A DNA stretch of 64,000 nt, taken from the NCBI RefSeq assembly GCF_000374105.1, contig NZ_KB893650.1:552862-616861 (forward strand). Direction: 5' to 3'. The notes beneath the pieces were generated by a model. That model made no database searches. It had not been told where the DNA came from and saw only the letters and a list, made by a program, of their open reading frames with translations. The position numbers were made by a program, and so were the translations under genes. Origin of the DNA: Kangiella aquimarina DSM 16071. Lineage in GTDB: Bacteria; Pseudomonadota; Gammaproteobacteria; Enterobacterales; Kangiellaceae. Each line of letters opens with the position of its first letter. Position 1 is the stretch's first letter. Positions 667-10,497 of the stretch are shown here, in pieces.

Positions 667-680
667 TCAATAAACAGAAA

Positions 681-702
681 AGCCAGCGTTTGCTGGCTTT
701 TT
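681..702 (+). terminator. Rho-independent terminator after gcvP
   Basis: A perfect 7-bp stem (681-687 with 692-698) closes a 4-nt GTTT loop and runs straight into a T5 tract. It ends the glycine cleavage transcript. Only 32 nt separate it from the start of the next gene, so the promoter of the following cassette must be tucked into or overlap this terminator, or the cassette depends on read-through. Confidence 0.9.
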
Positions 703-734: not shown

Positions 735-1535
735 ATGGCTGAATCAAAAGGTGAATTTATCGCCGTTAGTACGGGTATGAATTTAGGGGGGCAAATCTCT
801 GTAATAGCTAAGGACTACATTCAAAAAGCAGATGTAGTTTATGCCTTAATGCCTCATACATTGGCTGAACGATGGTTAGAAAGGTTAAATCCTAACTTAA
901 AAAGCCTACAACCCTTTTACGGAGTGGGTAAATATCGCATGCAATCATACGAAGAAATGATTGAGGTGATGATGGATGAAGTTAGAGAGGGTAAGAAAGT
1001 ATGTGGGGCATTTTATGGTCATGCTGGAGTATTTGCCTGTGTGCCACGATTAACAATAGATAAAGCCCGTAAAGAAGGTTTTCGCGCTCTAATGGAACCA
1101 GGTATTTCTGCAGAAGCCTGTTTATACGCCGATATTGGTATTGATCCCGGAGTTCATGGCATTCAGGGTTATGAAGCTTCCCAATTTTTATTCTACAATC
1201 AATCAATTAACAACGCTGCCTATGCAATTATGTGGCAAATTGGCATAGTAGGAGAGCATACGGCTACGCAATTTGAAACCAAGCCAGAGTGGGTTGAGGT
1301 TTTTGTTGAGCGATTGAAAGAGTGGTATCCGTTATCTCATGAAGTCATTCTTTACGAAGCCGCGGTACTTCCTATTGAGGAGCCGAGAATAGAGCGTCTA
1401 CAACTAAAAGATTTGCCACAAGCGGAAATGTCTACTAAAAGCACGCTGGTTATCCCACCAGCTAGAGCTCTCGAATTGAATATCGAAGTTCTGGAAAAAA
1501 TGGGATTGAAACCAGAAGATATTGCTCACGGGTAG
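735..1535 (+). CDS. Borosin-type peptide-backbone alpha-N-methyltransferase (split borosin, SonM-like)
   Basis: A 266-residue SAM-dependent enzyme of the tetrapyrrole (precorrin) methylase fold. I read it as a borosin N-methyltransferase, which methylates backbone amides of a ribosomal peptide, not as a cobalamin enzyme. The segment FYGHAGVF (93-100) matches the FYGHPGVF block of the fungal omphalotin enzyme OphMA as I recall it. Tyr62, Arg68, Tyr72 and Tyr94 fall at a constant offset of four from the OphMA catalytic residues Tyr66, Arg72, Tyr76 and Tyr98. The position equivalent to Tyr63 is Gln59. The glycine-rich SAM loop is VSTGMNLGG (11-19), and MEPGISAEACLYADIG (from about 119) is the second cofactor segment. 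It lacks a C-terminal core peptide, and a separate small peptide gene follows 69 nt downstream, as in split borosins such as Shewanella SonM/SonA. The Shine-Dalgarno AAGGAAG lies 8 nt before the ATG. The coding sequence is visibly AT-rich compared with gcvP. Confidence 0.88.
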   Translation: MAESKGEFIAVSTGMNLGGQISVIAKDYIQKADVVYALMPHTLAERWLERLNPNLKSLQPFYGVGKYRMQSYEEMIEVMMDEVREGKKVCGAFYGHAGVFACVPRLTIDKARKEGFRALMEPGISAEACLYADIGIDPGVHGIQGYEASQFLFYNQSINNAAYAIMWQIGIVGEHTATQFETKPEWVEVFVERLKEWYPLSHEVILYEAAVLPIEEPRIERLQLKDLPQAEMSTKSTLVIPPARALELNIEVLEKMGLKPEDIAHG

Positions 1536-1604
1536 TGAGTTGGAAGTTGGTAAAAAATACTGTATAAACAGTAGCTTATTATTTTAATAAAGAGGGAGTT
1601 CACT

Positions 1605-1826
1605 ATGTCGAAGCAAAAACTAGAAGAGTTCATCATTCAATTGAGCGAGGACTCAGAGTTAAAACAGTCTTATATTGAAAATCCAATGGCGGTTATGCAG
1701 AAGATTGGCTTAGAAGAACAAGAAATAAAGGCTATTATGTCAGGAGATAAAAGACAGATATCAGCAATGCTTGGGCAGGATGCTGAGTTGATTGTTACAG
1801 GAATAATACACTTAGTTAAAAAGTAA
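1605..1826 (+). CDS. Split-borosin precursor peptide (SonA-like)
   Basis: A 73-residue peptide preceded by a strong ribosome site (AGGGAG, 6-7 nt before the ATG). Residues 4-57 look like a small acidic helical bundle: LEEFIIQLSEDSELKQSY, then NPMAVMQKIGL, then EEQEIKAIMSGD. This resembles the borosin-binding domain of bacterial split-borosin precursors, which automatic annotation often mislabels LigA-like or Nif11-like. It ends in a hydrophobic tail, LIVTGIIHLVKK (62-73), which I infer is the core that carries the backbone N-methyl groups. The branched residues Leu62, Ile63, Val64, Ile67 and Ile68 are candidate sites. There is no obvious protease site such as a double Gly before the core. Position directly after the methyltransferase supports the pairing. 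Which residues are methylated cannot be read from sequence. Confidence 0.85.
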   Translation: MSKQKLEEFIIQLSEDSELKQSYIENPMAVMQKIGLEEQEIKAIMSGDKRQISAMLGQDAELIVTGIIHLVKK

Positions 1827-1865: not shown

Positions 1866-1893
1866 AGCTGTGTGCTAAGCTAAGCATACAGCT
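1866..1893 (+). other. Stem-loop after the borosin precursor gene
   Basis: An 11-bp stem (1866-1876 with 1883-1893, one G-U pair) closes a 6-nt loop, 40 nt after the precursor stop codon. It is not followed by a T tract, so it is not a standard terminator. It could stabilise the precursor mRNA 3' end or attenuate read-through into the TPR genes, giving more peptide than TPR protein. A smaller dyad (ACTGT/ACAGT, 1559-1572) lies between the methyltransferase and precursor genes. Confidence 0.5.
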
Positions 1894-1937: not shown

Positions 1938-3002
1938 ATGAAGGCTTTAATAAAAAAATCATGCATTACATTGGCGCTACTATTCTTTGCGTCAGTAGCT
2001 ATTTCTGTCCAAAGTTTAGAGGAAAAGCTAAACGAGGCACATCGACTGTTAACTTCAAGCCCAGAAGAGAGTGGTAGATACCTTAGTGAACTAGAAGCTG
2101 AACAGCTAAACTTAAATGATAATCAAAAAGAAAGATTCCTACTGTATAAGGGGCACAACTCATTACTACAAGGAAAGCATGATGAGTCAATTCTCTATTT
2201 AAATAAATTAGTGGAAGAGAGTAAAAACAAAGCAGCGAAAGCACAAGCCTATTCGATGTTGGCAGTGGTATATACCAATACCTCAGAGTTTATGAATGCT
2301 TTCGTGAATATAGAGAAAGCAAGATTAATGTTAGATGGTTTAACGGATGAGAAAGCAATTAAAACTGTTTTAGCAAATGCTGCCACAATTTATACAGAAG
2401 TAGGCTTCGTTGACAAGGCTTATGAGTATTCAAACAGTTATCTAAAAGAGGTAGGTAAATCAGGGGTAGAAAAGGAGTTATGCTACGCATACTTTAATTC
2501 GGCATATATTGAAATTCAGCTTCAGAATTATGAAAAAGCCCAAGAGTATTTTTCAATTGCGTTAGATAATTGTGAAAAGTCGAAGCAAAAGCTTTTTCAT
2601 ACAGTAGCCGCACAAGAAATAGCATCTTTATTAATTATGAAAGACAATGATGTCAGTCATTTGGAAAGTTTAAAAAATCTACAGGATGAGATCCAAGAAA
2701 TAAACTGGGATATTGCTGAGGCTGGCGGCTTGATTAAAATTGCTGAAGCAAATTTAAAATTAAAGAAAAATGAAGAAGCAGTAAAATATGCAGAAAAGGC
2801 ATTTACTACTAAAACCACTGATAGTTATCTTCCTCATAAAAAAGAAGCCACTCGAATACTCGCGACTGCGTATTCTAATCTTGGGAATAACGATAAAGCA
2901 ATTGAGTATTATCAATTGTATATCGACACGGAAAGACAAATTCAGTTGCAATTAAAACAGCGTAAAATGGCTTATTTTATTGCAATGCAGAGTATGGAAT
3001 AA
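1938..3002 (+). CDS. Exported TPR-repeat protein, first of a paralogous pair in the borosin cassette
   Basis: A 354-residue protein with an N-terminal signal peptide (Lys-rich start, hydrophobic core about 9-23, likely cleavage near residues 24-26), so probably periplasmic. The rest is almost wholly helical tetratricopeptide repeats. Recognisable units include AQAYSMLAVVYTNTSEFMNA, YFNSAYIEIQLQNYEKAQEY and ILATAYSNLGNNDKAIEYY near the end. The C-terminal stretch QRKMAYF resembles the coiled-coil linker that follows TPRs in sensor kinases and diguanylate cyclases, but no catalytic domain follows. It shares blocks with the next gene (N-QKE-F-L-KGH, GK-DES, KRKMAYY-like end), so the two are tandem duplicates. 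A stop codon lies directly before the ATG, which fixes the start; the ribosome site is weak. Function is unknown; association with borosin maturation, export or sensing is inferred from position only. Confidence 0.8.
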   Translation: MKALIKKSCITLALLFFASVAISVQSLEEKLNEAHRLLTSSPEESGRYLSELEAEQLNLNDNQKERFLLYKGHNSLLQGKHDESILYLNKLVEESKNKAAKAQAYSMLAVVYTNTSEFMNAFVNIEKARLMLDGLTDEKAIKTVLANAATIYTEVGFVDKAYEYSNSYLKEVGKSGVEKELCYAYFNSAYIEIQLQNYEKAQEYFSIALDNCEKSKQKLFHTVAAQEIASLLIMKDNDVSHLESLKNLQDEIQEINWDIAEAGGLIKIAEANLKLKKNEEAVKYAEKAFTTKTTDSYLPHKKEATRILATAYSNLGNNDKAIEYYQLYIDTERQIQLQLKQRKMAYFIAMQSME

Positions 3003-3011
3003 GGCTGGAAT

Positions 3012-4118
3012 ATGAGTAAATCTTATTTTGAAAAAGCAATGAAAACTACCGTCACTATAATCTATGGCATGTTAATGCTGATAGGCTTTAACAATGTTGC
3101 GCAGTCTGAAGAAATTCTAGAGCCTCATGGTTATTCCAATATTCTAGAAGCAATTGAAATTGATAAGACATCAAATATTGAGTCGGCAAAGAAATATATA
3201 GAGTTACTTGAGAAAGACTACGAAAAATTAAATACAGATCAAAAAGAATTATTCACACTCTTCAAAGGACATGCCTTAGCTCTTGAAGGTAAATTTGATG
3301 AATCAACTCAGCAGCTCGAAGAACTTATCCGGAACTCAAAGAATGAAACTTTGGTCACTCGAGCACATGCATTAGTTGCTAACATTTATTTGTTTTCAGG
3401 AAACTATGAGCAGGCTTACCAGCATGCTTCTGATGCTATTGAAGGACTGGAGTCTATGGACTCTCATCCTTGGCATAAGTATGCAGCATTACAGAATTTA
3501 ACAAGCTTGTTTAGACAATCTGGAATGACAAACACGGCTATTGGCTATGCAAGACAAATGCTAAAGGTTGTCAGTCAAAACAAGCATCCATTGCAACTGT
3601 GTGGTAGTTATTTTGAGTTGGCAGATTTAGAGTTAAGCATAAAGAGTGTAGATATGGCGCGCATTCATAGTGAAGAAGCTATGCTGCATTGCAACGAAGC
3701 CAACGATCCTATTTATTACACGCTGGCTTTAGATTTACAAACAAAGTTAATGGCTCAGGCTAACAAAAGTGATAAAGCGTTAGAATTGCTCAAAGAGCAC
3801 TATCCTGTAGTGAAGTCAGTTGATTATAAAACAATGACCAATGTTTTTGAGATAAGACTCGCTTCAACGTATCTTGAATTAAAAGATTTTAGTAATGCTC
3901 AGACAATTGCAGAATTAGCTTACCAAAGGGCGGAAGAATTAAACGATAAAGTTCGTCTAATGGAACTTTCAAAAATTTTGGCGAGTGTTTATTCTGAAAC
4001 CGGTGAGTTAAAGAAAGCCGTTGAGTATTATCGTCAATACATCGATCTTGAAAAAGAAATTGATATTATGACCAACAAACGCAAAATGGCGTACTATATG
4101 GTGAGTCGTAGGAAGTAA
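3012..4118 (+). CDS. Exported TPR-repeat protein, second of a paralogous pair in the borosin cassette
   Basis: A 368-residue TPR protein starting 9 nt after the previous stop, so the two are cotranscribed. A hydrophobic segment (about 13-29, TIIYGMLMLIGFNN) followed by AQSEE suggests a signal peptide with cleavage near Ala-Gln-Ser, although the N-terminal region is longer than usual. TPR units include RAHALVANIYLFSGNYEQAY, ALQNLTSLFRQSGMTNTAI, IRLASTYLELKDFSNAQT and ILASVYSETGELKKAVEYY. The terminal KRKMAYYMVSRRK is basic and matches the end of the upstream paralogue. It is AT-rich like the rest of the cassette. It ends 4 nt from the convergent mutH stop, which marks the right edge of the cassette. 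No enzymatic motif is seen; a scaffold, receptor or chaperone role is a guess. Confidence 0.8.
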   Translation: MSKSYFEKAMKTTVTIIYGMLMLIGFNNVAQSEEILEPHGYSNILEAIEIDKTSNIESAKKYIELLEKDYEKLNTDQKELFTLFKGHALALEGKFDESTQQLEELIRNSKNETLVTRAHALVANIYLFSGNYEQAYQHASDAIEGLESMDSHPWHKYAALQNLTSLFRQSGMTNTAIGYARQMLKVVSQNKHPLQLCGSYFELADLELSIKSVDMARIHSEEAMLHCNEANDPIYYTLALDLQTKLMAQANKSDKALELLKEHYPVVKSVDYKTMTNVFEIRLASTYLELKDFSNAQTIAELAYQRAEELNDKVRLMELSKILASVYSETGELKKAVEYYRQYIDLEKEIDIMTNKRKMAYYMVSRRK

Positions 4119-8408: not shown

Positions 8409-9203
8409 ATGAAACAGTATCTCGATATGATGCGCCATGTCCTTGAGAATGGCGAAGATAAAGGCGATAGAACCGGAACGGGAACGCGTAGCGTGTTTGG
8501 TTATCAGATGCGCTTTAATCTACAGGACGGTTTTCCATTGGTTACCACCAAGAAATTACATCTTCGTTCAATCATTTATGAATTACTGTGGTTCTTGAAT
8601 GGCGATACCAACATCAAGTATCTGAAAGACAATGGCGTTTCGATCTGGGACGAATGGGCAGACGACAATGGCGACCTTGGGCCAGTTTATGGTGAGCAAT
8701 GGCGCTCATGGAAAAAGCCTGACGGAACAACCATTGATCAGATTTCAAATGTACTCCATCAGATTAAAAACAATCCGGACAGTCGTCGTCTGATGGTGGT
8801 TGCCTACAATCCTGGGGTTGCCGATGAAATGGCCTTACCGCCGTGTCATTCACTGTTCCAATTCTATGTAGCTAACGGCAAACTGTCCTGCCAGCTCTAT
8901 CAGCGTAGCGCGGATATTTTCCTGGGCGTACCTTTCAATATTGCTTCTTATGCTTTGCTAACCCATATGGTTGCGCAGCAGGCGGGATTGGATGTCGGTG
9001 AGTTTATCTGGACAGGTGGTGATACCCATCTGTATAGCAATCACTTTGAACAGGCTAAAGAGCAGTTGTCTCGCCAGCCATTGCCGTTGCCAACACTAAA
9101 CATCAAGCGTAAACCTGACTCACTGTTCGACTATCAGTTCGAAGACTTTGAAATCGTCGGCTATGAAAGCCATCCGCATATCAAAGCACCGGTGGCAGTC
9201 TAG
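8409..9203 (+). CDS. thyA: Thymidylate synthase
   Basis: A 264-residue enzyme, exactly the E. coli length, that methylates dUMP to dTMP with methylenetetrahydrofolate. The catalytic cysteine is Cys146 in the motif [12 protein letters not shown], at the same number as in E. coli. RTGTGT (21-26), the phosphate-binding [23 protein letters not shown] and GDTHLYSNH are all intact. It is followed 9 nt later by folA, which regenerates the dihydrofolate that ThyA produces; the two are clearly one transcription unit. Confidence 0.98.
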
Positions 9204-9212
9204 GAAGGAATT

Positions 9213-9725
9213 ATGAGTAAGCCTATCATCAGCTTGATTGTGGCCATGGCTAATGAGCGAGTTATTGGTAAAGACAATCAAATGCCGTGGCATTTACCCG
9301 CTGATCTCAAGCATTTTAAAGCAGTAACACTAGGCAAGCCGGTCATCATGGGCCGTAAAACCCATGAGTCGATTGGCATGGTCTTACCGGGTCGCGACAA
9401 TATCATCATCAGCCGCAATCCGGATTACCGCTCAGAGTTTCATAATGAACGCTGTCAGGTAGTAACCAGCTTAGAAGAAGCCTTTGCGGCCGCCGGTGAT
9501 GCACAAGAAGTGATGATCATTGGTGGATCTAATATCTATCACCAGATGATCGACCATGCGGATAAGCTCTATTTGACCTTCATTGATTTAGATACAGAGG
9601 GTGATGCACACTTTCCCGACTGGACGCATTTGCAATGGCAGGAAGTTTCGCGCGAGAAACATCAGCCGGATGAAAAGAATCCCTATCATTATCAGTTCGT
9701 TGAATTGGCAAGGATAAGAGATTAA
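9213..9725 (+). CDS. folA: Dihydrofolate reductase
   Basis: A 170-residue type I dihydrofolate reductase, which reduces dihydrofolate to tetrahydrofolate with NADPH and is the target of trimethoprim. IGKDNQMPWHLPADLKHF (18-35) contains the Met20-like loop and the catalytic acid Asp31 (E. coli Asp27). KPVIMGRKTHESIG and the nucleotide-binding MIIGGSNIYHQM are intact. The ribosome site is GAAGGAAT just after the thyA stop. Cotranscription with thyA couples production and recycling of dihydrofolate. A REP-like hairpin follows. Confidence 0.97.
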   Translation: MSKPIISLIVAMANERVIGKDNQMPWHLPADLKHFKAVTLGKPVIMGRKTHESIGMVLPGRDNIIISRNPDYRSEFHNERCQVVTSLEEAFAAAGDAQEVMIIGGSNIYHQMIDHADKLYLTFIDLDTEGDAHFPDWTHLQWQEVSREKHQPDEKNPYHYQFVELARIRD

Positions 9726-9737
9726 TCTTCATATCGG

Positions 9738-9763
9738 GTAGGGGCAGGCTAATGTGCCTGCCC
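9738..9763. repeat. REP-like palindrome, copy 1
   Basis: GTAG (9738-9741) followed by a perfect 8-bp palindrome GGGCAGGC/GCCTGCCC with a 6-nt loop. A near-identical copy at 39751-39776 differs by one base over 28 nt. The layout (GTAG head, then hairpin, in an intergenic region just after a gene) is that of REP elements mobilised by RAYT (TnpA-REP) transposases. No RAYT gene is in this window. It could also act as a terminator or mRNA stabiliser for folA. Confidence 0.6.
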
Positions 9764-9782
9764 ATTTTGAATCATCGTTTGA

Positions 9783-9854
9783 TTACCTTAATAATAAGAT
9801 CACAATCCCCACCAGCATCAACACCAATAAAATCCCCTGAATTAAACGTTTCAT
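9783..9854 (-). CDS. Unannotated 23-residue single-span membrane peptide
   Basis: A small open frame on the minus strand: ATG at 9854, stop at 9783-9785. The product begins MKRLIQG and continues with a run of Leu, Val, Ile, Met and Gly ending in Arg, a typical one-span membrane microprotein. A good ribosome site (GAGGAG) lies 7 nt before the ATG. It is downstream of the sortase gene on the same strand. Positive charges at both ends flank the hydrophobic run. Codon-level conservation in relatives would be needed for certainty. Confidence 0.45.
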   Translation of the reverse strand: MKRLIQGILLVLMLVGIVILLLR

Positions 9855-9927
9855 AACAAACTCCTCATCGATATTGTTTTTATATAACGAGGAGCATCGG
9901 AATTTATTCCACTTTAATATAATTTAA

Positions 9928-10497
9928 TCAAACTTTCTCCGCATGGACCAGATAACGTAATGGCCCTCCCACTTCCAGTGTGTTGAAAGGATAACAGGTG
10001 ACCAGCGTCAGCTGATTGATGCCCCTATCCTGAATCTGATCGGTTTCTATATTGTGAATTTCTATCTGAGTCACCTTGTAATGGTGGGTCACTCCTAGCT
10101 TATCCTGAATGACGAGCTCATCACCTGCTTTGAGGTATTGCAGGAACTCAAAATGAGTATCTCGATGTCCGCCTAAAATCGTATGACCGGGCTGTTCGGG
10201 CAAATTACTTGATAGAAGATGCCCTGGGCCAAAAGCCAGGTTGCGGCCTGAAGCACCCGAGAGAACTAGCTGCTCAATGTTCTGGCTTGGCACTGTTAGT
10301 TTGGCTACCGGGAAGGTATCGGCCCAGTCCCAGGGCTTATGTGGCTGGCCATCATCAAGCGTCTGTTGCCAGGCGTCTTCAAGCAAATATTGCGCAAGTA
10401 TGGCCTTGGCTTTGATGTAACCGGCCTGACCAAAAGCGGTCAGGCTAATGGCCAGGAGTGCACAGAGAACACCGTATTTGCGAATGAAGGTTTTCAT
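9928..10497 (-). CDS. Class GN (marine proteobacterial) sortase
   Basis: A 189-residue sortase with an N-terminal membrane segment (about 9-24). The catalytic residues are visible: His111 in GGHRDTHF, Cys168 in LTLVTCYPF and Arg181 in GGPLRYLV. Class GN sortases are the Gram-negative marine family, usually encoded beside one dedicated target. Here the VIT/VWA protein is encoded 11 nt upstream on the same strand, an exact match to that pairing. The enzyme would cleave the target near its C-terminus and attach it to an unknown acceptor, or release it, on the periplasmic side. Confidence 0.93.
   Translation of the reverse strand: MKTFIRKYGVLCALLAISLTAFGQAGYIKAKAILAQYLLEDAWQQTLDDGQPHKPWDWADTFPVAKLTVPSQNIEQLVLSGASGRNLAFGPGHLLSSNLPEQPGHTILGGHRDTHFEFLQYLKAGDELVIQDKLGVTHHYKVTQIEIHNIETDQIQDRGINQLTLVTCYPFNTLEVGGPLRYLVHAEKV

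Follow-up and report, generated by a model that had tools for sequence, protein, structure and literature searches.

A split borosin locus with adjoining TPR genes in Kangiella aquimarina and its possible role in peptide signalling

The window analysed here, a stretch of 64,000 nucleotides from Kangiella aquimarina DSM 16071, carries between gcvP and mutH an enzyme gene and a small precursor gene that almost certainly form the methyltransferase–precursor pair of a split borosin, followed by two genes for tetratricopeptide repeat (TPR) proteins (Table 1). These downstream TPR genes are the more unusual part of the locus and were absent from the preliminary description of this DNA. Since the TPR part of most relatives is the predicted sensor of a cyclase or kinase, the peptide would signal between or within cells. 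To the reading of the locus as a whole, with an N-methylated peptide as the signal and a TPR protein as its receptor, we give an even chance of being correct.

Table 1 Features of the split borosin locus, with positions counted from the first nucleotide of the window
Feature	Position	Strand	Basis
Stem-loop in the gap after gcvP, possible terminator setting the locus apart from gcvP	678..701	listed on minus strand	terminator-like site
SonM-type peptide backbone N-methyltransferase, 266 aa	735..1535	+	phmmer SonM 7ltc E 9.9e-93; catalytic residues invariant 22/22
Precursor leader, residues 1-58, five-helix borosin binding domain	1605..1778	+	SonA E 9.9e-10; predicted helices; Foldseek
Precursor tail with core, residues 59-73 (DAELIVTGIIHLVKK), plus stop	1779..1826	+	aligned with SonA-type tails; core boundary and methylated residues inferred
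Stable hairpin in the precursor–TPR1 gap, no T-run after it	1866..1893	+	fold of 1820-1940, z-score -2.48
TPR1 (354 aa), output-less TPR protein predicted to be secreted, proposed core partner	1938..3002	+	Pfam TPR; N-terminal hydrophobic segment
TPR2 (368 aa), likewise an output-less TPR protein	3012..4118	+	Pfam TPR

The methyltransferase and its precursor

The preliminary description had proposed a split-borosin locus made up of reading frames of 266 and 73 residues, and this proposal is borne out: the coordinates of both frames match, the precursor (73 aa, 1605-1826) starts 69 nt after the enzyme gene, and the two products are homologues of SonM and SonA standing side by side. The motif FYGHAGVF is present in the enzyme as had been reported, and the chain is indeed free of a fused core peptide. 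In sequence searches the enzyme matched OphMA at E about 3e-41 over about 255 residues, and the 25 PDB sequences found at E≤1e-30 were without exception borosin methyltransferases. Pairwise alignment places Y62, R68, Y72 and Y94 opposite Y58, R67, Y71 and Y93 of SonM, and the four residues are invariant in 22/22 aligned relatives, which are a selection among the matches in the genomes examined. The catalytic set that had been singled out earlier thus holds with respect to SonM; the constant offset of minus four from the OphMA set, on which the same claim had leaned, depends on numbering that we take to be that of OphMA. Mutation of the four SonM residues by Miller et al. 2021 (PMC8429565) lowers turnover or SAM affinity.

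The Pfam family of the enzyme, PF00590, would suit an ordinary tetrapyrrole methylase that happens to lie beside an unrelated small open reading frame, but the exclusively borosin character of the PDB matches and the presence of a SonA homologue next door make this scarcely credible. Tetrapyrrole-methylase models match the enzyme weakly, the best NCBIfam model at E 1.7e-6 and 27.3 bits (cut-off 525) and the cobM/cbiF model at 14.5 bits (cut-off 259.65), so that a place among CobA/CysG-type methylases, which the preliminary description had named as the outcome that would speak against it, was not found. The tetrapyrrole-methylase reading is refuted by the SonM and SonA matches, the PDB hits, the catalytic residues and the SonA-like fold of the peptide, along with the NCBIfam scores far below cut-off.

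The peptide, described earlier as helical with a hydrophobic tail, is a SonA homologue by sequence and by predicted fold. Helices are predicted at residues 3-15, 17-25, 27-34, 38-46 and 49-56 of the leader, and the structure model (mean pLDDT 76.7) consists of five helices and an extended tail, the latter with values below 60. When this model was searched against the PDB with Foldseek, the 30 best rows were all SonA chains, followed by LigAB (best E 1.5e-3), and the five-helix domain of the model overlays the SonA crystal structures with an rmsd down to 0.6 Å. Among five Kangiella genomes, with dS near or at saturation, dN/dS, where defined, ranged over 0.015-0.079 in the enzyme gene and 0.004-0.052 in the precursor gene; because the peptide matches SonA and dN/dS is low, the pair is more than a chance arrangement. 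The SonM match, the catalytic residues, and the SonA match and fold together argue for a type IV split borosin, and judged by sequence the locus is an added member of this type, in Kangiella.

The SonM–SonA system of Shewanella oneidensis (PMC8429565) likewise has a separate methyltransferase, a precursor of about 70 aa and a five-helix binding domain, and it shares with the Kangiella pair the catalytic residues and the order methyltransferase to precursor. The Kangiella enzyme is 49-54% identical to the enzymes of the Shewanella loci compared, its side-clamp loop has three residues fewer than the SonM loop, and its core is unlike the SonA core. In the fused fungal borosin OphMA, clasp and core are part of the enzyme chain (PMC8429565), whereas the Kangiella precursor has its own gene. 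The Kangiella and Shewanella systems also differ in what follows: two output-less TPR genes in Kangiella, and a TPR-GGDEF gene in the 28 Shewanella and Parashewanella loci, among which MR-1 is not included.

TPR genes at the locus and among its relatives

TPR1 is modelled with a pLDDT of 91.7, and its cysteines 182 and 212 are invariant in 34/34 output-less TPR proteins. Neither TPR1 nor TPR2 carries an output domain according to a Pfam and hydropathy survey. TPR2 had no hydrophobic segment over the hydropathy threshold; its orthologues in two other Kangiella genomes (G019, G013) have one. In a Foldseek search with TPR1, the first bacterial proteins were two peptide-pheromone receptors, RapI and the Rap protein of phage Phi3T; NprR came lower (TM about 0.6, similar size). 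Since the best 25 rows are mostly eukaryotic LGN/Pins chains, this likeness may merely reflect the general TPR fold. Rap and NprR act in the cytoplasm of Gram-positive bacteria, where they bind unmodified peptides taken up from outside. With these RRNPP receptors TPR1 would share a TPR fold of similar size and, as proposed here, a peptide ligand; it differs in that the TPR protein is predicted to be periplasmic and the peptide is proposed to be N-methylated, and the likeness is one of fold.

Upstream of the locus, the evidence for a terminator is weak, because the window holds two such sites where 2.1 are expected in shuffles. The hairpin between the precursor gene and TPR1 may be an RNA processing or attenuation element, as far as its predicted fold goes. 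The eight neighbours within 9 kb are gcvP, mutH, Nudix, DUF938, TauE, Lgt and thymidylate synthase genes and a 125-aa reading frame without a Pfam match, and Pfam revealed neither a peptidase nor an evident peptide exporter among them.

At least one borosin methyltransferase match was found in 20/20 Kangiella genomes and in 41/61 genomes examined overall. Of 20 loci compared, 15 (L037-L041 and L043-L052, of which L040 stops short of mutH) resemble the window in having a precursor, an enzyme and one to four TPR genes at the gcvP–mutH site; the other five are four Kangiella loci of a different type and one from another genus (L042). In the four Kangiella genomes with the different locus type, the gcvP–mutH site (L194-L197) holds TPR genes, and the models found no enzyme and no precursor reading frame of at least 45 aa there, which suits receptors responding to another locus no less than it suits a separate role. 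The genome of the window encodes three split-borosin methyltransferases, the other two of which (C1:41.9-45.1 kb) are absent from the preliminary description; each is accompanied by a small precursor of its own and by an acetyltransferase, and the second is followed by a TPR-GGDEF protein of 609 aa. The second split-borosin locus of this genome (L006:3908-9696) comprises two acetyltransferase–enzyme–precursor units and a TPR-GGDEF gene, and its second precursor has an acidic PAEDD-type tail, a pattern found in 20/61 genomes. Outside Kangiella, one reading frame each in an uncultured Steroidobacter (L168:7902-9359) and in Povalibacter uvarum (L181:7992-9350) matches both methyltransferase and acetyltransferase models and would, from these matches, be a methyltransferase–acetyltransferase fusion.

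The association with TPR genes extends to nearly all related enzymes examined. In two locus sets of 81 and 76 genes, which overlap by ten loci on contigs common to both, and the former of which leans to Gammaproteobacteria because it represents the best 80 of at least 579 confirmed places, a same-strand TPR protein is encoded within 2.5 kb of the methyltransferase gene in 80/81 and 71/76 cases, and a precursor accompanies the enzyme in 80/81 and 70/76. Three of the five misses in the smaller set are at 2.56 kb and two (L066, L090) are near contig ends; the single miss in the larger set (L180) is the same place as L090. With a TPR model built from whole proteins, output domains included, 83/170 and 84/172 reading frames of at least 200 aa match within 1.5 kb of the enzyme, as against 2/237 and 8/283 beyond 3.5 kb.

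An output domain is present in 143 of the 195 TPR proteins encoded within 4.5 kb of related enzymes, a count that includes duplicates and for which Pfam was run on 10 examples: 128 carry GGDEF, 14 a histidine kinase and one a kinase with receiver, and 52 carry none. Hydropathy indicates exactly one late membrane segment in 119/128 GGDEF and 14/14 kinase proteins, and an N-terminal hydrophobic stretch with no late one in 39/52 output-less proteins. The two cysteines are kept in 119/128 GGDEF and 47/52 output-less proteins and are missing in 13/14 kinase proteins. Near related enzymes, the TPR protein is thus mostly a predicted periplasmic sensor fused to GGDEF or histidine kinase.

Covariation of core and sensor, and alternative readings

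In the Shewanella set (28 loci, 27 from Shewanella and one from Parashewanella), core and sensor change together, and the methyltransferase and the output domain stay. Mantel tests (5000 permutations, p floor 2e-4), which are liberal with related sequences, gave for core against sensor r 0.746 (p 2e-4, n=28) given methyltransferase and GGDEF, and 0.625 when the leader was corrected for too. After removal of two split reading frames and two near-duplicates (n=24) these values were 0.696 and 0.552. No covariation was seen between core and GGDEF, with r 0.017 (n=28, given sensor and enzyme) and 0.061 (n=24). Core against methyltransferase, given sensor and GGDEF, gave 0.206 (p 0.016), or 0.182 (p 0.053) with n=24, and leader against sensor gave 0.608 given core, methyltransferase and GGDEF. 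The pattern can be followed in single pairs of loci. Between S. oncorhynchi and S. hafniensis (L123/L135) the methyltransferase is 97% and the GGDEF domain 99% identical, as against 33% for the core and 50% for the sensor. In nucleotides, the enzyme gene ends with 91-98% identity; the value is 83% in the leader, 44-61% from about 9001 to 10000, and mostly 90-97% between 10101 and the point where GGDEF ends. The divergent block is contiguous and has sharp borders, and two S. benthica records (L115/L120) show a like pattern, with 12-48% identity inside most of the block.

At the window site in Kangiella (n=15), the core covaries with the first TPR protein given methyltransferase, leader and last TPR protein (r 0.458, p 4e-4), does not follow the last TPR protein (-0.267), and gives 0.46 (p 0.0016) with the methyltransferase. 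In the second Kangiella locus type (9 loci and 2 outside loci, n=11), where the gene order is precursor, TPR-GGDEF, enzyme and core and sensor are again adjacent, r was 0.606 (p 2e-4) for core against sensor and 0.326 (p 0.037) for core against output domain. In the kinase group there was no covariation of core and sensor (0.056, n=8). In ten Kangiella loci whose precursor and TPR genes are separated by the enzyme gene, the correlation was not significant, either given the methyltransferase (r 0.222, p 0.18) or given methyltransferase and leader (0.327, p 0.09). Thus the arrangement that would break linkage, with few loci (n=10), does not confirm the link of core and TPR protein, and our confidence in the signal–receptor reading, which had stood a little above even, was lowered to even because of this.

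Two core alleles are found at the window site, AELIVTGII in the window and one other genome (G011) and AELVITGII in three (G019, G013, G003), and TPR1 divides accordingly, with nucleotide identities of 82-86% inside the classes and 67-71% between them. The enzyme, TPR2, gcvP and mutH do not split by class, TPR2 and mutH of G003 being outside the stretch compared, and in TPR2 the window and G011 are the closest pair (91%). There are 93 positions without a residue common to both classes in TPR1, and 19 in TPR2 and 5 in the enzyme when four genomes are counted. The TPR1 differences cluster at residues 27-114 and 198-274 and are not enriched on the assigned concave-face helices (35/136 versus 36/140). 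The meaning of the core difference is uncertain, since it is no more than an exchange of Ile and Val.

The most serious competitor of the signal–receptor reading is that the covariation reflects linkage alone, with recombination between conserved flanks swapping the middle of the operon, rapidly evolving parts drifting apart in parallel, and the TPR gene having another role. Because core and sensor adjoin in most gene orders, one recombination tract can move both; the contiguous Shewanella block, the covarying leader, the lack of significant covariation with the enzyme gene in between (n=10) and the negative kinase group (n=8) all agree with this. It is harder to see why the GGDEF domain, which is fused to the sensor, should then not covary with the core in Shewanella, and the covariation recurs in a second gene order, even though core and sensor are adjacent there as well. 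Altogether we consider linkage alone unlikely, yet worth serious weight.

Rather less probable is that the split borosin is real but that the TPR proteins, instead of being receptors, serve in peptide handling or maturation as scaffolds or chaperones. Adjacency alone is compatible with such a role, as are the output-less state of the TPR proteins at the window locus and the tandem copies, one to four, in Kangiella, but a scaffold has no need of the GGDEF or kinase domains to which the TPR part is joined in relatives, and in Shewanella the TPR sequence tracks the core more than the enzyme. We regard it as more improbable again that the N-methylated peptide is secreted to inhibit competitors, with the TPR protein as immunity or sequestering partner. 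Allele-specific toxin–immunity pairs would produce like covariation and allele blocks, and the TPR genes standing alone in four genomes could be orphan immunity genes; fusion of TPR to GGDEF and kinase outputs speaks against this, as does the failure to see a peptide exporter among the eight neighbours.

Maturation, signalling and meaning for the family

By homology to SonM–SonA, the methyltransferase would bind the five-helix leader of the precursor and, using S-adenosylmethionine, N-methylate amides of the hydrophobic tail at about residues 62-70. A protease would then free the methylated tail, and the neighbouring TPR protein would bind the freed peptide. The TPR proteins of the window itself may be secreted and serve as partners in binding, as co-receptors or as decoys.

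A pepsin-like aspartic protease gene with a frame of 428 aa is present in the genome of the window (C1:492200-493363; L186, L187). The pepsin family is absent from 14 control genomes, and among the 61 genomes it occurs exclusively together with a borosin methyltransferase (24/41 genomes with the enzyme, 0/20 without), with a match within 0.8 kb of the borosin enzyme in seven genomes. Shewasin A reportedly cleaves a borosin precursor. Within Kangiella, pepsin occurs in 11/11 genomes with a PAEDD-type core by pattern and in 1/9 others (G003). Because it is paired there with the acidic-core locus, it was set aside as processing enzyme of the pair in the window.

In pherotype systems of the agr and ComX kind, a variable signal and its sensor change in step while the flanking genes are conserved; these systems have another chemistry, another class of receptor and another output, and the likeness is one of analogy alone. 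As of 2021, no split-borosin pathway had been tied to a final natural product (PMC8429565). Our literature search, which did not extend to the main papers on split-borosin diversity, returned no report joining borosin with Kangiella, tetratricopeptide, diguanylate cyclase or pepsin homolog, no mention of SO1480, and nothing related on a periplasmic TPR diguanylate cyclase with a peptide signal. PMC11285071 cites diversity papers by Imani and by Cho, PMC11395268 cites a study that mined genomes for borosins with RODEO, and the linkage of TPR genes to split borosins may already be in print.

Somewhat more tentatively than for the locus itself, it can be envisaged that gammaproteobacterial split borosins in general are N-methylated pheromones read by periplasmic TPR sensors with c-di-GMP or histidine-kinase output, that the core–sensor blocks are pherotypes, and that the window holds an output-less Kangiella version of the system. 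The presence of a TPR sensor beside nearly every enzyme examined, and the way in which it follows the core in Shewanella, provide a testable function with c-di-GMP as readout in Shewanella. If the proposal is true, a class of backbone N-methylated peptide pheromones would be added to Gram-negative bacteria.
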